Source: Deltaproteobacteria bacterium
GTDB taxonomy: Bacteria > Bdellovibrionota_B > Oligoflexia > Oligoflexales > Bog-1112
Direction: 5' to 3'
Assembly: GCA_016186945.1 (NCBI GenBank)
Contig: JACPKR010000025.1
Coordinates: forward strand, 1-64,000
DNA: 64,000 nucleotides
The notes below the pieces were generated by a model, which was given only the letters and a program-made list of their open reading frames with translations, searched no databases and was not told where the DNA came from. The position numbers and the translations under genes were made by a program. This document shows, piece after piece, positions 2,885-50,942 of the stretch; within the stretch, counting starts at the first letter, position 1; each line of letters opens with the position of its first letter.

Positions 2885-2912
2885 ACCGCCTCCCCCAAAA
2901 AACTTTAGATTG
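2885..2912 (-). repeat. Family A repeat relic between two genes
   Basis: About 26 bases match the internal part of the family A element (CCTCCCCC followed by AAAAAACTTTAGAT). On the minus strand this relic holds the TAA stop of the upstream barrel gene and the GGGGGAGG ribosome-binding site of tauE. Confidence 0.7.
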
Positions 2913-5556
2913 AATCCCACCGGTATGCAACACGGGCATTGAATCGCGCTCGCGACGGGGAAGGCCCTGAATCGGACGGAAAAAAGAACTTCTCGTAATC
3001 CTGGTCATAGGACCGGTAGTTATATTCCAGGAGCAGTTCAAGTCCCTTGTGGATTTCAGCCCCTAGGCCAAGAGTGTAGGCCCATTGGAACAAATTAAGC
3101 TCAGAGTCACCAACCTTTGCACAGCTATTTTCTCCCACCGTAAGGCATGTTGTAAATGCTGGTAGATCAGATTCGATCCTCCGTTGCTCGAAATCAACGC
3201 TCGCCATGAACCTATCGAAGAAACGATAGGACAGGTTCATGTTTAAGGTTTCCTTTCCCATCGAATTTTCAGTCTCGTGTTTAGCATCTTCCAAGAAAAA
3301 CAAGTCTTCGTTCAAACGACTGCATTGGCTAAAATCGTTGCGGTTCAGGAATCCATCTTCTTCGCGACTTAAGTCTTTCAGCAGAGATTGCTGCCAGCCC
3401 CCCCCTGCGCTGAGTCCCGCTAAAAAACGTTCAGTCCCTTTAAAAGCAAGACCTGCCATGACTCGCCTGTGAGAATATGCGTTCTTGCTACCGCTTCTGT
3501 TAATCCCGCATAATTGTTGCAAGGAGTCTTGTTCCGCTTCGTTTCGAAGGGAGCCAGCATGATTCCCGTTGAAGGAGACTCCCGCTGAAAGAGAGAGCAT
3601 CTGGACGATACGGGCGACTCCTTCCATCGCTACAAATCCTTGACTGTTTTGATTGGCAGGAAGTTCACCTTCACCGTTGCCCACGGTTAGTTTTAGGCTG
3701 ATTTCTTCCATTGCCGCCATGTTCAAAGCAAGACTCACAGCTAACTGGTCCCAACCAGCGTCGACGAAGGAAGAACCAAAGGCGAGTGGACCTTTGGGGT
3801 AGTAGGAAAACCCGCGAAAGTTTTCGATCCCCATTTCCAGATGAGGGATGGGTTGATATATGAAGTAAAAGTCTTCCACAAAAAAGAGTGGATCAGATTG
3901 AGGTGCTTTCGTCAGGGGAGACGATCGCAGTCCTGCATCTCGCACAAGAAATGGGTTGAGCGTCAGGCGCGAGCCAAATTTCTCCGCATTTAAGTGTTCA
4001 TAACTCACTCGTAGTCCGGTAAGTTTTAGACAGTCTTCCGAGTTGCCCACATCCTGCAGACCCTCGTTCTTAAGGCAGTCTACTCGTAAACTCATCAAGA
4101 ACGATTCCTGCCTCTCTCGCATTTGTGGAAGGCGCAAAAGGCCAAAGCCATAGAGACAAGTCGTCTGCATAAAAAGAAAGAACGCACAAATTCTAAAGGA
4201 GATATAGTATTTGAGAAAAAGAATTTGTGGAGAGGACCTTTTTTGAAAAAAAGTTCCCCTCCACACCTCCCCCCAAAAAACTTTAGATATTGAAGTTTTT
4301 GAAAAGGGGCTTGGGGAAATAACTTTTTTCAAAAAGTTTTTCCGTTCAAACCCAAATCTTTGAATTTCATCATCATTACTCCCCAAATCGAAGGCTGCTC
4401 TATTGTCACCTCCGTTATCGAAATAACGTCGTTCTTTAGAAAGAACCAGGCTTGCGAAAAGATGCTTTTGCAATTCCTTTACAAAACCAATGTCAAATTG
4501 ATAACCCTTGAATACTTGTCGTACAAAAAAATCAGAACGCTCCTCGAACCATCGGTCACTGCTCCCCCAATGGATACCGGCGAAAATCTTCCATCCATAG
4601 TGATGCGACCAATGAAGAAAGAGTGAGGCGCTTAACTGGAGCAGTTCCGGGTAGTCGATCGTCGTGCCAAGCCACTGCTCACTGGATGTTCGGATATCCA
4701 GCAGTGTGCTGAAGTCCTGGGAAAAAAGGGAGAAGGCTTTGCGCCCGATGAGTTGGCCATAGATTTCCTTCACCTGTCCGTCATACTCCCGCCTTTCCTC
4801 ATAACCTGCAAGGAGAGCAGATTCGAAAAATTTCGGGATCCAGTTGAGTGTTACGGCACCGCCCCAATAGGGATTTTCAGATGCCGGTCCCACGTCAAAT
4901 GTCCTTTTATGCCTTGTTCTTGCCTCGGCCCGAATCTCTCGACCCTGGACAACGAAGGCTGAAGCAGAAAGATGGGATTGTTCGACTCCAAACTCATCCT
5001 TAAGGTTCCGCCTAAGGTGTATGCGTGCTCCCGTGAAACTGCGCGGAACCTGGGCAGCAAGTCCAAATTCAACGATGTCTGCATATGTTTCTTCAGGCAT
5101 GGGGAAGCGGTCCCACAAGCCGTAAGCGAGGGAAGCCTGTTCTCCCCAGACTGCTCCCATATGATATTCCTGCAGAAGGGCTAACACAGGCTTTTGTCGA
5201 TACACGCTACCAGCGCGAGAATCGAAATCACGAGGTTCATCAGCAGGAATTTCCGGCTTGAACTGCAACGCATCCGGCCGAAATCCCAAAGACAAAACGC
5301 TGCTGTGGAAATCTTCCCAGTGTACATTGAAGTAGGCTGAACGCAGTCCCAGGCTTCGGTAACCATTCTTACTGTTGTTGGACAGGAGAGGCCGAGGTTC
5401 CTCGCTGGTAGCATCAGGCCGACGGAAGGCTTCATACATAGCAAGACGGAAGTCGACTGCATATTGTAGGGGAACCTCCAGGGTTTGCTGTTCTCCCCAA
5501 ACTTGGGATGCTAGCCCCCACCCGCATAGAAGCAAGACCAACTTGCGAACGCACAT
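2905..5556 (-). CDS. Two outer-membrane beta-barrel proteins joined in frame through a repeat element
   Basis: One uninterrupted 883-codon frame that looks like two genes. Residues 1 to about 400 begin with a signal peptide (MCVRKLVLLLCGWGLASQVWG) and continue as alternating beta-strand-like sequence rich in aromatics. Residues of about 410-455 are a direct translation of a family A repeat (4203-4366). After it comes a second hydrophobic leader (FRICAFFLFMQTTCLYGFG) and a second barrel-like protein rich in Tyr/Phe strands, ending in VAYRW plus three residues. No specific family is recognised. The natural reading is two tandem secreted barrels whose stop and start were erased by insertion, leaving a fusion; alternatively translation restarts at the internal Met near the second leader. 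The TAA stop lies in another repeat relic. It is followed closely by tauE in the same direction. Confidence 0.7.
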   Translation of the reverse strand: MCVRKLVLLLCGWGLASQVWGEQQTLEVPLQYAVDFRLAMYEAFRRPDATSEEPRPLLSNNSKNGYRSLGLRSAYFNVHWEDFHSSVLSLGFRPDALQFKPEIPADEPRDFDSRAGSVYRQKPVLALLQEYHMGAVWGEQASLAYGLWDRFPMPEETYADIVEFGLAAQVPRSFTGARIHLRRNLKDEFGVEQSHLSASAFVVQGREIRAEARTRHKRTFDVGPASENPYWGGAVTLNWIPKFFESALLAGYEERREYDGQVKEIYGQLIGRKAFSLFSQDFSTLLDIRTSSEQWLGTTIDYPELLQLSASLFLHWSHHYGWKIFAGIHWGSSDRWFEERSDFFVRQVFKGYQFDIGFVKELQKHLFASLVLSKERRYFDNGGDNRAAFDLGSNDDEIQRFGFERKNFLKKVISPSPFSKTSISKVFWGEVWRGTFFQKRSSPQILFLKYYISFRICAFFLFMQTTCLYGFGLLRLPQMRERQESFLMSLRVDCLKNEGLQDVGNSEDCLKLTGLRVSYEHLNAEKFGSRLTLNPFLVRDAGLRSSPLTKAPQSDPLFFVEDFYFIYQPIPHLEMGIENFRGFSYYPKGPLAFGSSFVDAGWDQLAVSLALNMAAMEEISLKLTVGNGEGELPANQNSQGFVAMEGVARIVQMLSLSAGVSFNGNHAGSLRNEAEQDSLQQLCGINRSGSKNAYSHRRVMAGLAFKGTERFLAGLSAGGGWQQSLLKDLSREEDGFLNRNDFSQCSRLNEDLFFLEDAKHETENSMGKETLNMNLSYRFFDRFMASVDFEQRRIESDLPAFTTCLTVGENSCAKVGDSELNLFQWAYTLGLGAEIHKGLELLLEYNYRSYDQDYEKFFFPSDSGPSPSRARFNARVAYRWDSI
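4203..4366 (+). repeat. Family A hairpin element, inside a coding frame
   Basis: The copy begins TATAGTATTTGAG and has all three hairpins: the GTGGAG/CTCCAC stem with T/A-rich centre, the AAAACTT/AAGTTTT stem, and the GGGGAAA...TTTTTCC stem. The right end is diverged. On the minus strand the copy has no stop and keeps the surrounding outer-membrane-protein frame open. Confidence 0.9.
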
Positions 5557-16794: not shown

Positions 16795-16817
16795 GACTCA
16801 GTGGGACTTTGTTGAAG

Positions 16818-17031
16818 AGTGCCGTCATTGCGAGGAGGGGGAAGCCCGACGAAGCAATCCAGTCTCACTATCTCATATACGTCAATGGCACTAACTTAAG
16901 ACTCTATACTTGACACAAATTCTGTCACAACAGTGCCGTCATTGCGAGGAGGGGGAAGCCCGACGAAGCAATCCAGTCTCACTGTCTCATATACGTCAAT
17001 GGCACTAACTTGACACAAATTCTGTCACAAC
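16818..17031. repeat. Tandem duplication containing a REP-like sequence
   Basis: Two direct copies, 16818-16931 (114 bp) and 16932-17031 (100 bp), are nearly identical except for a 14-bp piece missing from the second. Each begins with a GTCATTGCGAGGAG...GAAGCAATCC motif of the kind seen as dispersed repeats in many bacterial genomes. Each ends with the last codons of the neighbouring hydrolase gene. The unit therefore looks like a local duplication of a repeat plus the gene's 3' end. Confidence 0.9.
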
Positions 17032-21964: not shown

Positions 21965-22133
21965 CTATAGTATTTGGGAAAAAGAATTTGTGGAGAGGAC
22001 CTTTTTTGAAAAAAAGTTCCCCTCCACACCTCCCCCCAAAAAACTTCAAATACTGAAGTTTTTGAAAAGGGGGTTGGGGAAATAACTTTTTTCAAAAAGT
22101 TTGTCCCCAAATTGATTATCTTGAACACTATAG
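21965..22133 (+). repeat. Family A element, complete 169-bp copy
   Basis: This copy defines the element. It starts CTATAGTATTTGGG and ends CTTGAACACTATAG, and it has three successive hairpins: GTGGAG...CTCCAC with T/A-rich stem, AAAAACTTCA/TGAAGTTTTT, and TTGGGGAAA...TTTGTCCCCAA. It lies between the TolC-like gene and the adaptor gene and forms the whole leader of the latter. Confidence 0.93.
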
Positions 22134-23604: not shown

Positions 23605-26600
23605 ATGATAGCGAGAATCATACGACTTTGTGCATCACATCCAGGGCTGACGATATTTCTGGTATTGGCAATTTCCTTTCTTACAATCTTCTCGCTTAGG
23701 AAATTGCCGTTGGACGCCTTGCCTGATTTGTCCGACACACAGGTGATTGTGTTCTCAGAGTGGATAGGGCGTTCTCCTGATCTTGTCGAAGACCAAATCA
23801 CTTACCCCCTTGTGACAAGTCTCCTGTCATCTCCAAAAGTGAAATACGTTCGTGGTCTTTCCATGGTGGGAGCCTCTCAGGTCCTTGTCATTTTCCAGGA
23901 AGGCACAGATCTTTATTGGGCACGCTCGCGAATTGCTGAAAAACTCGCTTCCGTCTCTTCGCTTCCGCAAGGGGTTGTTCCGACATTAGGTCCCGAAGCG
24001 ACCGGTCTCGGTTGGGTTTATCAATACGCCTTGGTCGACAAATCGGGGAAACATGATCTTCAGGAGCTTCGGTCCTTACAGGACTGGAACTTACGTTTCG
24101 CTTTGCAGGCGGTTCAAGGTGTCGCGGAGGTGGCGAGTGTTGGTGGTTTTGAAAAACAATATCAGATCCTGCTGGATCCACTAAAACTACAAGCCTTTAA
24201 TATCTCCCCTCTACAAGTAACTCGTGCGGTTCGAGGAGGGAATCAAGAAGTTGGCGCCAACGTCCTAGAAATGGCAGGAAGAGAATATGTCATTCGAGGA
24301 CGTGGTTACGTTAAGACGATCGCCGATATTCAAAAAATTCCTATCACTGTTTCCAAAAAAGGACGAGTCATCGCTGTAGGCGATATCGGAAGCGTGCAAA
24401 TTGGCCCCGCTCCTCGAACGGGCGCAGGAGAATTTGACGGAGAAGGGGAGACGGTAAGCGGCATTGTCGTGATGCGCATGGGCGAAAATGCGCTCAACGT
24501 CATCGCTTCGGTCAAGGAAAGACTCGAAGCACTCAAAAGCTCTCTTCCCGAAGGAGTTGAAATCGTTCCCGTCTACGACCGATCGGATTTGATTCATCGA
24601 GCCATCGACACACTCAAACGGGTTCTGGTCGAAGAGATCGTCGTTGTTTCCGCGATCGTTTCGATTTTTCTTTGGCACGCACGGGCAAGCTGGGTTGCTA
24701 TTTTGCCTTTGCCGATCGCGGTACTGCTCTCGTTTTTACTCATGTTTTTTTTCGGTGGCCTGACTGTGAACGTGATGTCTCTCGGCGGAATCGCTCTCGC
24801 GATTGGAGCCATGGTGGACGCCGGGATTATTTTAGTGGAAAACGCCCACAAAAAACTTGAAGGCCGCAACACCAAAGATATGTCTGAAAAAGAACGGCGG
24901 CATCTTATTGTAGAAGCTATGGTAGAGATGGGAAAGCCTCTCTTCTTTTCCCTTCTTGTGATCACCGTCTCTTTTTTACCAATATTCGCCTTGGAAGGAA
25001 GAGAAGGCCGCCTCTTTAAACCCCTTGCTTTTACGAAGACGTTTTCGATGGGATGGGCCGCTATCTTGGCGATTACTCTGACCCCCGCATTGGCAGTGTT
25101 GTTTCTAAGGGGAAAGTTTGTCCATGAGGATGAACATATTATCAGCCGTACGCTTCACCGATATTATACTCCCGTCATCGCTTATGTAGTTCGTTTTCGA
25201 AAAGCTGTTTTGGCGATTGCTGTGCTCCTCATGTTAGCAACCGTTCCTATTTTCAAAATGATTCAGACCGAATTCATGCCACCTCTCAATGAAGGCACGA
25301 TCCTTTATATGCCAACGGCAGTCCCTGGCATGAGCATTGACACGGCTATCGAAATCTTGCAGAAGCAAAATACTATTATTAAAGCTCATCCTGAAGTTGC
25401 ACATGTGTACGGCAAAGCTGGACGTGCCAAATCGGCAACCGATCCAGCTCCCATCAATATGTTCGAAACGGTGATCACGCTCAAACCGAAAGAAGAATGG
25501 AGAAATGGCATGACTTTCGAGAAAGTCATTGCTGAACTTGACCAAAAACTGAAATTTCCAGGAATGCCCAATATCTGGTGGATGCCCATTCAGACACGAA
25601 TCGAAATGCTCTCGACTGGCGTCCGAACCGCTGTTGGAATCAAAGTCCTAGGGTCAAAATTAGAAGAGATCGAAAAAACAGCTGTCGATATCGAATCCGC
25701 CTTGAAAGGTGTGTCTGGTACAAAAGCTGTTTTCGCCGAACGGACCCAAGCGGGTTCTTATATTGATATTGACATAAAAAGAGAAGCTGCCGCGGTTTAC
25801 GGTCTGAATATTTCTGATGTTCATTCAGTTGTGGAAACTGTGATTGGTGGCAACATAGCGTCGACAAGTGTCGAAGGTCGGGAGCGTTACGGAATTCAGA
25901 TTCGCTATGCTCAGGATTTTCGCAAAAATCTTGAAGCCATCCGAGATGTCATTATTCCCACGCCTACGGGCAATGTAGTAACACTTTCCCAAATTGCCGA
26001 CATTAGTGTCTCCTCTGGCGCACCGATGATCAACAGTGAAAACGGAAAAATTCTTGGTTTTGTCTTTGTCGACGTCGATAAAAATATTGGTCTGGAAGAA
26101 TACGTTGACGCTGCAAAAGAAGCGATAGCTAAAAATGTGAAATTTTCAGATGGGACACGAATCGAGTTTTCGGGACAATTCGAAGCCTTTTTAAGCGCCA
26201 AAAAAACTCTTCAAGTGATTGTGCCCGTCACTCTTATCTTCATCATTTTTCTCCTGTTTCTTAACACGATGTCGGCATGGGAGACCCTCATCGTTCTTCT
26301 TGCCGTGCCCTTTTCACTCATTGGGGCCTTCTGGCTGATCTGGTTGCTGAACTATAAACTTTCCATTGCCGTCTGGGTTGGTCTATTGGCGCTGGCGGGC
26401 CTTGATGCAGAAACGGGGGTCGTCATGCTTCTCTACCTCACGCGGGCTTACGCCAAGAGAATTGAGGCAGGTGTGAAACCAAGCCATGCGATGTTAAATG
26501 ACGCTATACACGAAGGAGCAGTCCAACGTATCCGTCCCAAACTTATGACCGTTGCGGCCGCTCTCATTGGCTTGCTTCCCGTCATGTGGAGCACAGGAAC

Positions 26601-26739
26601 CGGTTCCGAAGTTATGAAACGCATTGCTGCTCCGATGGTGGGTGGGATCATCACGTCAGGAATACTCGAACTTCTTGTGTATCCTGCAATTTTTGCGATT
26701 TGGAAAGGGGCTGAAATCAACAATAAGAGGAAACTATAG
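23605..26739 (+). CDS. cusA: Cu(I)/Ag(I) efflux RND pump CusA
   Basis: A 1044-residue heavy-metal RND transporter with twelve expected transmembrane helices and two large periplasmic loops. CusA-type features are visible: NIWWMPIQTRIEMLSTGVRTAVGIKV, quoted in pieces as WWMPI and RIEMLSTG, has the Met of the copper site, and the helix motif is DAETGVVMLLYL rather than the CzcA form. It drives export of monovalent metal with CusB and the TolC-like protein. The final codons CTA TAG (Leu-stop) are the first six bases of a family A element, so the natural C-terminus may have been trimmed or replaced. It begins 18 bases after cusB. Confidence 0.92.
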   Translation: MIARIIRLCASHPGLTIFLVLAISFLTIFSLRKLPLDALPDLSDTQVIVFSEWIGRSPDLVEDQITYPLVTSLLSSPKVKYVRGLSMVGASQVLVIFQEGTDLYWARSRIAEKLASVSSLPQGVVPTLGPEATGLGWVYQYALVDKSGKHDLQELRSLQDWNLRFALQAVQGVAEVASVGGFEKQYQILLDPLKLQAFNISPLQVTRAVRGGNQEVGANVLEMAGREYVIRGRGYVKTIADIQKIPITVSKKGRVIAVGDIGSVQIGPAPRTGAGEFDGEGETVSGIVVMRMGENALNVIASVKERLEALKSSLPEGVEIVPVYDRSDLIHRAIDTLKRVLVEEIVVVSAIVSIFLWHARASWVAILPLPIAVLLSFLLMFFFGGLTVNVMSLGGIALAIGAMVDAGIILVENAHKKLEGRNTKDMSEKERRHLIVEAMVEMGKPLFFSLLVITVSFLPIFALEGREGRLFKPLAFTKTFSMGWAAILAITLTPALAVLFLRGKFVHEDEHIISRTLHRYYTPVIAYVVRFRKAVLAIAVLLMLATVPIFKMIQTEFMPPLNEGTILYMPTAVPGMSIDTAIEILQKQNTIIKAHPEVAHVYGKAGRAKSATDPAPINMFETVITLKPKEEWRNGMTFEKVIAELDQKLKFPGMPNIWWMPIQTRIEMLSTGVRTAVGIKVLGSKLEEIEKTAVDIESALKGVSGTKAVFAERTQAGSYIDIDIKREAAAVYGLNISDVHSVVETVIGGNIASTSVEGRERYGIQIRYAQDFRKNLEAIRDVIIPTPTGNVVTLSQIADISVSSGAPMINSENGKILGFVFVDVDKNIGLEEYVDAAKEAIAKNVKFSDGTRIEFSGQFEAFLSAKKTLQVIVPVTLIFIIFLLFLNTMSAWETLIVLLAVPFSLIGAFWLIWLLNYKLSIAVWVGLLALAGLDAETGVVMLLYLTRAYAKRIEAGVKPSHAMLNDAIHEGAVQRIRPKLMTVAAALIGLLPVMWSTGTGSEVMKRIAAPMVGGIITSGILELLVYPAIFAIWKGAEINNKRKL

Positions 26740-26887
26740 TATTTGGGAAAAAGAATTTGTGGAGAGGACCTTTTTTGAAAAAAAGTTCCCCTCCACGCCT
26801 CCCCCCAAAAAACTTTAGATATTGAAGTTTTTGAAAAGGGGCTTGGGGAAAAAACTTTTTTCAAAAAGTTTTTCCCAAAATTGATTA
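26734..26887 (+). repeat. Family A element between cusA and the TerC gene
   Basis: It begins CTATAG, which contains the cusA stop codon, and runs through all three hairpins to CCCAAAATTGATTA, after which the usual TCTTGAATACTATAG end is missing. The lost end abuts the 5' part of the TerC coding sequence. Confidence 0.92.
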
Positions 26888-36632: not shown

Positions 36633-36801
36633 CTATTGTATTCAAGATAGTCAATTTGGGGAAAAACTTTTTGAAAAAAGTTCTATCCCCAAGCCCCTTT
36701 TCAAAAACTTCAATATCTAAAGTTTTTTGGGGGGAGGCGTGGAGGGGAACTTTTTTTCAAAAAAGGTCCTCTCCACAAATTCTTTTTCCCAAATACTATC
36801 G
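36633..36801 (-). repeat. Family A element, complete copy running into dacB
   Basis: It is 169 bp, the same size as the defining copy, in reverse orientation (CTATTGTATTCAAG ... CCCAAATACTATCG). All three hairpins are present. About half of it is translated as the tail of dacB, which stops at the internal TAG (36717-36719). Confidence 0.93.
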
Positions 36802-40203: not shown

Positions 40204-40502
40204 GTAAAGAAATGAAAATCATGGGCGTCAAGGAACTTTGGCAGGTCGACGATAAAACCTTAGCCATCTTGTGGACCGACAAAGTAGAACAACACTACGA
40301 TGTCGTCGAATTGCGGAGAAAATGCCCCTGCGCAGCTTGCGTGGATGAGCGTACGGGCAAACGCACCCTCGCTCCTGAAAATGTGGCAGACACGGTCCGT
40401 CCCAAGCTTTTAAAATCAGTGGGAAGATATGCGCTCACAATTCAGTTCAGTGACGGTCACGAGACAGGGATTTACACATTCGACTATTTACGGAACCTAT
40501 AG
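40200..40502 (+). CDS. DUF971 (GBBH-like N-terminal) domain protein
   Basis: A 100-residue protein with the DUF971 pattern: LAILWTDKVEQHYDVVELRRKCPCAAC, quoted in parts as LRRKCPCAACVDE, and LKSVGRYALTIQFSDGHETGIYTFDYLR. The family is a small beta-rich domain often beside Mrp and thought to assist Fe-S biogenesis. The Cys residues fit this. It is coupled to mrp by a four-base overlap. The stop codon TAG (CTA TAG) is the terminus of a family A element. Confidence 0.88.
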   Translation: MSKEMKIMGVKELWQVDDKTLAILWTDKVEQHYDVVELRRKCPCAACVDERTGKRTLAPENVADTVRPKLLKSVGRYALTIQFSDGHETGIYTFDYLRNL

Positions 40503-40595
40503 TGTTCACTTCAATATCAAAAGTTTTTTGGGGGGAGGCATGGAGGGGAACTTTTTTTCAAAAAAGGTCCTCTCCACAAATTCTTTTTCTCAAAT
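40497..40595 (-). repeat. Family A element, internally deleted (about 99 bp)
   Basis: It is the reverse form: it starts CTATAGTGTTCA, then goes straight to CTTCAATATCAAAAG, so the GGGG hairpin is missing. The GTGGAG stem and the end TTCTTTTTCTCAAAT are present. It fills the convergent gap between the DUF971 gene and sucD and contains the stop codons of both. Confidence 0.9.
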
Positions 40596-44404: not shown

Positions 44405-44567
44405 ATTTGAGAAAAAGGATTTGTGGAGAGGACTTTTTTTGAAAAAAAGTTCCCCTCCACGCCTCCCCCCAAAAAACCTTAGATATTGAAGTTTTTTGAA
44501 AAGGGGCTTGGGGAAAGAGCTTTTTTCAAAAAGTTTTTCCCCAAATTGATTATCTTGAATACTATAG
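44405..44567 (+). repeat. Family A element upstream of the PocR regulator
   Basis: It starts TTTGAGAAAAAGG (the outer TATAGTA is lost), has all three hairpins and ends TATCTTGAATACTATAG. Its right end runs directly into the left copy of the 20-bp direct repeat that flanks the abiE cassette. Confidence 0.92.
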
Positions 44568-48059: not shown

Positions 48060-48147
48060 CCCCTTTTCAAAAACTTCAGTATTTAAAGTTTTTTTGGGGG
48101 ATGAGTGGAGGGGAACTTTTTTCCAAAAAAGGTCCTCTCCACAAATT
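48060..48147 (-). repeat. Family A element, truncated at both ends
   Basis: CCCCTTTTCAAAAACTTCAG through AAAGTTTTTTTGGGGG and the GTGGAG/CTCCAC stem to TCTCCACAAATT. Both CTATAG termini are missing. It lies between the small gene at 48187 and the lipoprotein start. Confidence 0.88.
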
Positions 48148-50777: not shown

Positions 50778-50942
50778 TTTAATTCAAGATAATCAATTTT
50801 GGGAAAAACTTTTTGAAAAAAGTTCTTTCCCCAAGCCCCTTTTCAAAACTTCAATATCTAAAGTTTTTTGGGGGGAGGTGTGGAGGGGAACTTTTTTTCA
50901 AAAAAGGTCCTCTCCACAAATTCTTTTTCTCAAATACTATAG
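50778..50942 (-). repeat. Family A element between hutH and the secreted-protein gene
   Basis: It is the reverse form, from AATTCAAGATAATCAATTTTGG to CTCAAATACTATAG, with all three hairpins. The CTATAG end lies two bases from the hutH stop; the other end lies next to the ribosome-binding site of the downstream gene. Confidence 0.92.

Follow-up and report, generated by a model that had tools for sequence, protein, structure and literature searches.

What is the hairpin-rich repeat that separates a gene for an outer-membrane efflux protein from a HlyD/CusB-type gene in the 64,000-nucleotide stretch of DNA analysed here (the window), and how did it come to be there? The copy at this locus occupies positions 21968..22130 (+ strand), begins with TAG, ends with CTA, contains no transposase gene, and is flanked by a TA target-site duplication on the left (21966..21967) and on the right (22131..22132). 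The initial annotation described it as a 169-bp element with CTATAG-type ends; the repeated unit is real, but the mobile unit is 163 bp, and the outer letters are target-site duplication and target context: CTATAG at the edge resolves into C-TA-TAG, i.e. a target base, the TA duplication, and the start of the element. The two ends, TAGTATTTGGGAAAAAGAATTTG and TAGTRTTCAAGATAATCAATTTG, share 21 of 29 bases and are thus imperfect terminal inverted repeats, as had been proposed. Three hairpins with A/T-rich stems lie inside the element, among them hairpin 1 (GTGGAGAGGACCTTTTTTGAAAAAAAGTTCCCCTCCAC; 21990..22027, +), which is also kept in a chimeric subfamily; the element folds far more stably than do shuffled sequences (z = −6.5 and −6.7 for the two strands), and the fold contains the three hairpins noted at the outset.

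The window holds eight copies of the element and one 28-bp relic. All the copies listed in the initial annotation are present, those that it placed at 21965-22133 and 36633-36801 at full length, whereas its relic at 2885 is a 28-bp piece of the hairpin-1/hairpin-2 spacer region (2887..2914, +). The second full-length copy (36636..36798, −) lies between a peptidase S13 gene and maeB, and provides the last codons and the stop of the peptidase gene. Two copies lack the right end: one (4205..4343, +) is within an 883-aa open frame of the opposite strand, and the first TAG of the other (26737..26887, +) is the stop codon of an AcrB-family gene (23605-26739). The others are an internally deleted copy with the right terminal repeat present and the left end truncated (40500..40595, −); a copy whose left end has lost its first bases (44405..44564, +); a fragment without either end (48060..48147, −); and a copy with an intact left end from which the last right-end bases are gone (50783..50939, −). 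The 883-aa open frame (2905-5556) that crosses the truncated copy looks like two genes joined by that copy.

The core of hairpin 1 was found eight times in the window vs. zero times in 100 dinucleotide shuffles, and 163 times in the 2.66-Mb host MAG (up to three mismatches) vs. zero times for a reversed-pattern control; these counts exclude chance as the source of the repeats. Our sample of elements, drawn from 583 kb of host stretches (window included) plus smaller loci and covering about a quarter of the genome, contains 119 element places, 69 of which retain both ends; the lengths of these 69 peak sharply at 163 bp (42 copies), and TA stands on both sides in 52 of them. Collapse of the assembly was rejected as the cause of the copies: the 74 host contig ends that we read stop mostly at other repeats, and few stop at or near element fragments. 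The search of the genome and its relatives suggested by the initial annotation also found a full copy in none of 37 relatives, one of them from the same genus (longest match, 27 bases); the element was likewise absent from the viral contigs and plasmids searched, and the literature searched contained no description of such a family.

Comparison with relatives indicates that the tested copies are insertions. The peptidase S13 gene and maeB are adjacent in several genomes of the family, and the same-genus genome (G001) reads AACTACAGAGGAAATACCGATCATGG at the place that the element occupies in the host, after the end of the S13 coding sequence and before the maeB ribosome-binding region. At eight further junctions, e.g. 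uvrB-uvrC, the gene pair occurs without the element in G001 or in another genome of the family. The element is therefore absent from same-genus or same-family genomes at all nine junctions tested, which were picked for testability rather than at random and eight of which have the element between close co-directional genes; the empty sites that the initial annotation had proposed to look for do exist, and the tested copies are lineage-specific insertions. Some of the tested junctions hold other, unrelated sequence in relatives (e.g. 229 bp upstream of the glutaminyl-tRNA synthetase gene in G001), and among repeats of the host genome itself we found none spanning an empty site. By comparison of maeB, the host is nearest to Oligoflexales genomes (62% protein identity). 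The amplification of the family took place in one lineage, after its split from the sampled relatives.

Target choice and ends point to the IS630 (Tc1/mariner) group, where the initial annotation had named no family. The target of 14 of 52 regular insertions (27%) is CTAG, compared with 4.5% of intergenic TA dinucleotides (p = 5e-8), and transposition of IS630 to TA in CTAG is announced in the title of Tenzen & Ohtsubo (1991), as cited in PMC2170065; TA duplication and CTAG preference are thus common to both. For ISY100, 34 of 39 junctions formed in vitro were regular and five of 39 irregular (PMC2170065); irregular junctions are likewise a minority for the host element, with post-insertion mutation mixed into their number. 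Unlike IS630 and ISY100, which have their own transposase gene, the host element is without one.

A transposase with similar termini, for which the initial annotation had proposed to look, is represented in G001 by a relic, and none was found in the host assembly. The relic encodes the 97-residue C-terminus of an IS630 transposase that scores above the cut-off of Pfam DDE_3, matches NCBIfam NF033545 with E = 2e-17 (under the whole-protein cut-off of that model), and weakly matches Sleeping Beauty. The fragment ends ~20 bp ahead of a repeat that reads CTATAGTTTTCGGGAAAATTAATTTGGGG on the other strand; this repeat agrees with both ends of the host element at 24 of 29 bases, vs. a best background value of 21 of 29 at other loci (5.9 million comparisons), and, as the relic is 5′-truncated and broken, the comparison is with its right end. 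No further copies of the repeat were found in G001. A 52%-identical IS630 transposase encoded on Acaryochloris plasmids is the closest named relative, and two Acaryochloris copies are alike up to CTATAGAA and then diverge; this element also ends in CTATAG. Other candidate partners were rejected: IS630 elements of other relatives with readable repeats have different repeats, and an IS630 piece on G001 contig C292 is ~30% identical and degenerate.

Searches of the host MAG (91% complete and broken at multi-copy insertion sequences) with Pfam DDE_3, the relic protein, and the Acaryochloris protein retrieved no IS630 transposase, and neither 58 genomes of the phylum nor the viral contigs contained a full-length IS630 element with these ends. 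Multi-copy repeats are where the host contigs break, with overlaps of ~141 bp that would fit a short-read assembly with a k of 141; a driver present in several copies could thus have been left out of the bin. None of the 74 host contig ends read carries the driver transposase; the first bases of contigs C21 and C47 read as N, probably as withheld stretches, and the negative result does not extend to them. The driver has probably been lost from the host genome or left unassembled, and by its ends it would belong to the subfamily of the G001 relic.

Very probably, then, this is a non-autonomous element that has been mobilised in trans by an IS630-family transposase and inserts at TA, which is the best explanation of the TA flanks, the element-free junctions, and the relic transposase with matching ends, and which agrees with the non-autonomous mobile element, TA targets, and internal deletions envisaged by the initial annotation. 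In the mechanism that we propose, the transposase would recognise the imperfect terminal repeats, excise the 163-bp unit, and insert it at a TA, preferably within CTAG, whereby the TA would be duplicated. Movement was presumably of the cut-and-paste type, and interrupted gap repair may have given rise to the internal deletions and chimeras described below.

The structure of the defective copies bears on which parts of the element matter. At least 12 copies are chimeric: their left 60 bases, hairpin 1 included, and ~39 right-end bases are those of the element, and their middle is swapped for a TGTCATCCCGCGG...CCGCGGGATGACA palindrome pair. Of the eight that were fully read, six have TA at both borders; the remaining chimeras were recognised by a fixed 33-34-base offset between core and palindrome match positions. 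Other copies have an internal deletion with intact ends and measure 95-145 bp. As several chimeras have a wholly different interior, only the outer parts seem to be necessary for movement. The palindrome TCATCCCGCGGCTTGACCGCGGGAT, which forms chimera interiors too, occurs 154 times in the host genome (up to two mismatches) and in none of 37 relatives, often in inverted pairs or tandem runs (e.g. loci L226, L228, and L271-L274); at locus L192 (7392-7588), a lone CCCGCGG palindrome is inserted into the hairpin-1 A-run of one element copy. The window also contains copies, in either orientation, of a second dispersed family of palindromes, TTGGAGGAAACTGCGCAGCTGGTTCCTCCAA (2008, 17822, 20379, 32883, 38299, 42725, and 57844), and, at 16815-17016, two units containing GTCATTGCGAGGAGGGGGAAGCCCGACGAAGCAATCCAG that are 114 bp apart.

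Among 52 full copies, which differ from the consensus by 0.6-6.1%, ten common variant sites occur in 40 combinations, and for 44 of the 45 pairs of sites every one of the four combinations is found. Changes private to single copies cluster in the outer 20 bases (~0.027 per site vs. 0.004-0.008 inside); the sampling favoured an exact hairpin-1 core and so lowered variation there, but sites beyond hairpin 1 show the pattern as well. Gene conversion might keep the interiors of dispersed copies alike, an idea that we consider unlikely; smoothing during short-read assembly could also have produced such mosaic interiors. If conversion does operate, a dispersed 163-bp repeat evolves in concert in a bacterium. 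The family could also serve to test for recombination between short dispersed repeats.

It is necessary to ask whether the host keeps the repeats for a function of their own. The initial annotation saw the hairpins as possible terminators of transcription in both directions, and a family of bidirectional terminators maintained by the host at gene ends would account for strong hairpins on both strands and for the many copies that lie at or across a stop codon or within a few bases of one, some of which supply the stop (as for the AcrB-family and S13 genes). The remaining evidence does not support this proposal: terminator calling over 501 bp spanning the full copy gave no terminator-like site (GC stem followed by a T-tract); an Rfam search with the element gave no family match; copies lie between genes that are adjacent in relatives, e.g. 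uvrB-uvrC; and the copies track intergenic length. By a simple longest-ORF rule, seven of 98 copies in long stretches fall inside open frames, and the others are distributed over gaps in proportion to gap length (50 co-directional, 20 convergent, and 20 divergent, for background intergenic lengths of 18.2, 5.2, and 6.6 kb, respectively), and convergent gaps are not clearly enriched. We therefore regard a terminator family as very improbable. Fewer grounds still remain for a REP/BIME-type palindrome family moved by a REP-associated tyrosine transposase, which the high copy number, intergenic position, and palindromic hairpins would suit; a sharply bounded unit of constant length (163 bp) with terminal inverted repeats and a TA duplication fits a DDE element instead, and we give this origin almost no credence.

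A further proposal adds to the mobile-element interpretation rather than competing with it. In co-directional gaps (loci L175-L214 and the window), 37 copies are oriented with the genes and 13 against them (p = 0.0009), and in tight gaps 34 vs. nine, a bias that was noticed post hoc, was not predicted in advance, and depends on approximate gene calls. It is possible, if somewhat doubtful, that the mobile element now also affects operon mRNA and that copies in the minus orientation have been removed by selection; orientation-dependent effects of ERIC on mRNA and RNase III cleavage of Correia transcripts have been reported (PMC2229807, PMC10969869). Compensatory base changes in the hairpins amount to two cells in 52 copies, which provides no evidence of selection on RNA pairing. 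The ~160 copies, mostly intergenic and many of them between genes that are adjacent in relatives, constitute natural tests of hairpin insertion in operons.

That the repeat forms a new IS630-type MITE family, within an already known kind of mobile element, is well supported; targets, ends, and empty sites connect it, as a MITE from an Oligoflexales-like lineage, with IS630. Several described repeats resemble it in part. ERIC (IRU) is a 127-bp TA-bordered intergenic MITE with an orientation-dependent effect on mRNA (PMC2229807), but differs in host and length, and that review cites no transposase with shared ends for it. A MITE of Candidatus Thiomargarita nelsonii is found genome-wide and has TATAG borders, hairpins, and a suggested IS630 origin (PMC4853749), but is linked to a group I intron, and its parental insertion sequence was not found (PMC4853749). 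Compared by description, the closest known kinds appear to be RUP and the Correia elements (PMC2229807, PMC9330008, PMC10969869). The Correia elements of Neisseria (NEMIS, CREE) measure ~105-155 bp, are present in >100 copies, and have a TA duplication and TATAG or CTATA border repeats (PMC9330008); they share with the host element the size class, a copy number >100, the TA duplication, and borders of the TATAG/CTATA type, and have hairpin transcripts, whereas they differ, again by description, in host, and promoters and an IHF site are known for them (around the full copy of the host element, no sigma-70-like promoter was called). RUP of pneumococcus is 107 bp long, is present in 108 intergenic copies, targets TA, and has terminal repeats in common with IS630-Spn1 (PMC2229807). 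By description, RUP belongs to another host phylum, is 107 bp rather than 163 bp, and has its IS630 partner in its own host, whereas the host element has a relic in a sister species; both are short, non-autonomous, intergenic repeats that target TA and share their ends with an IS630 element.
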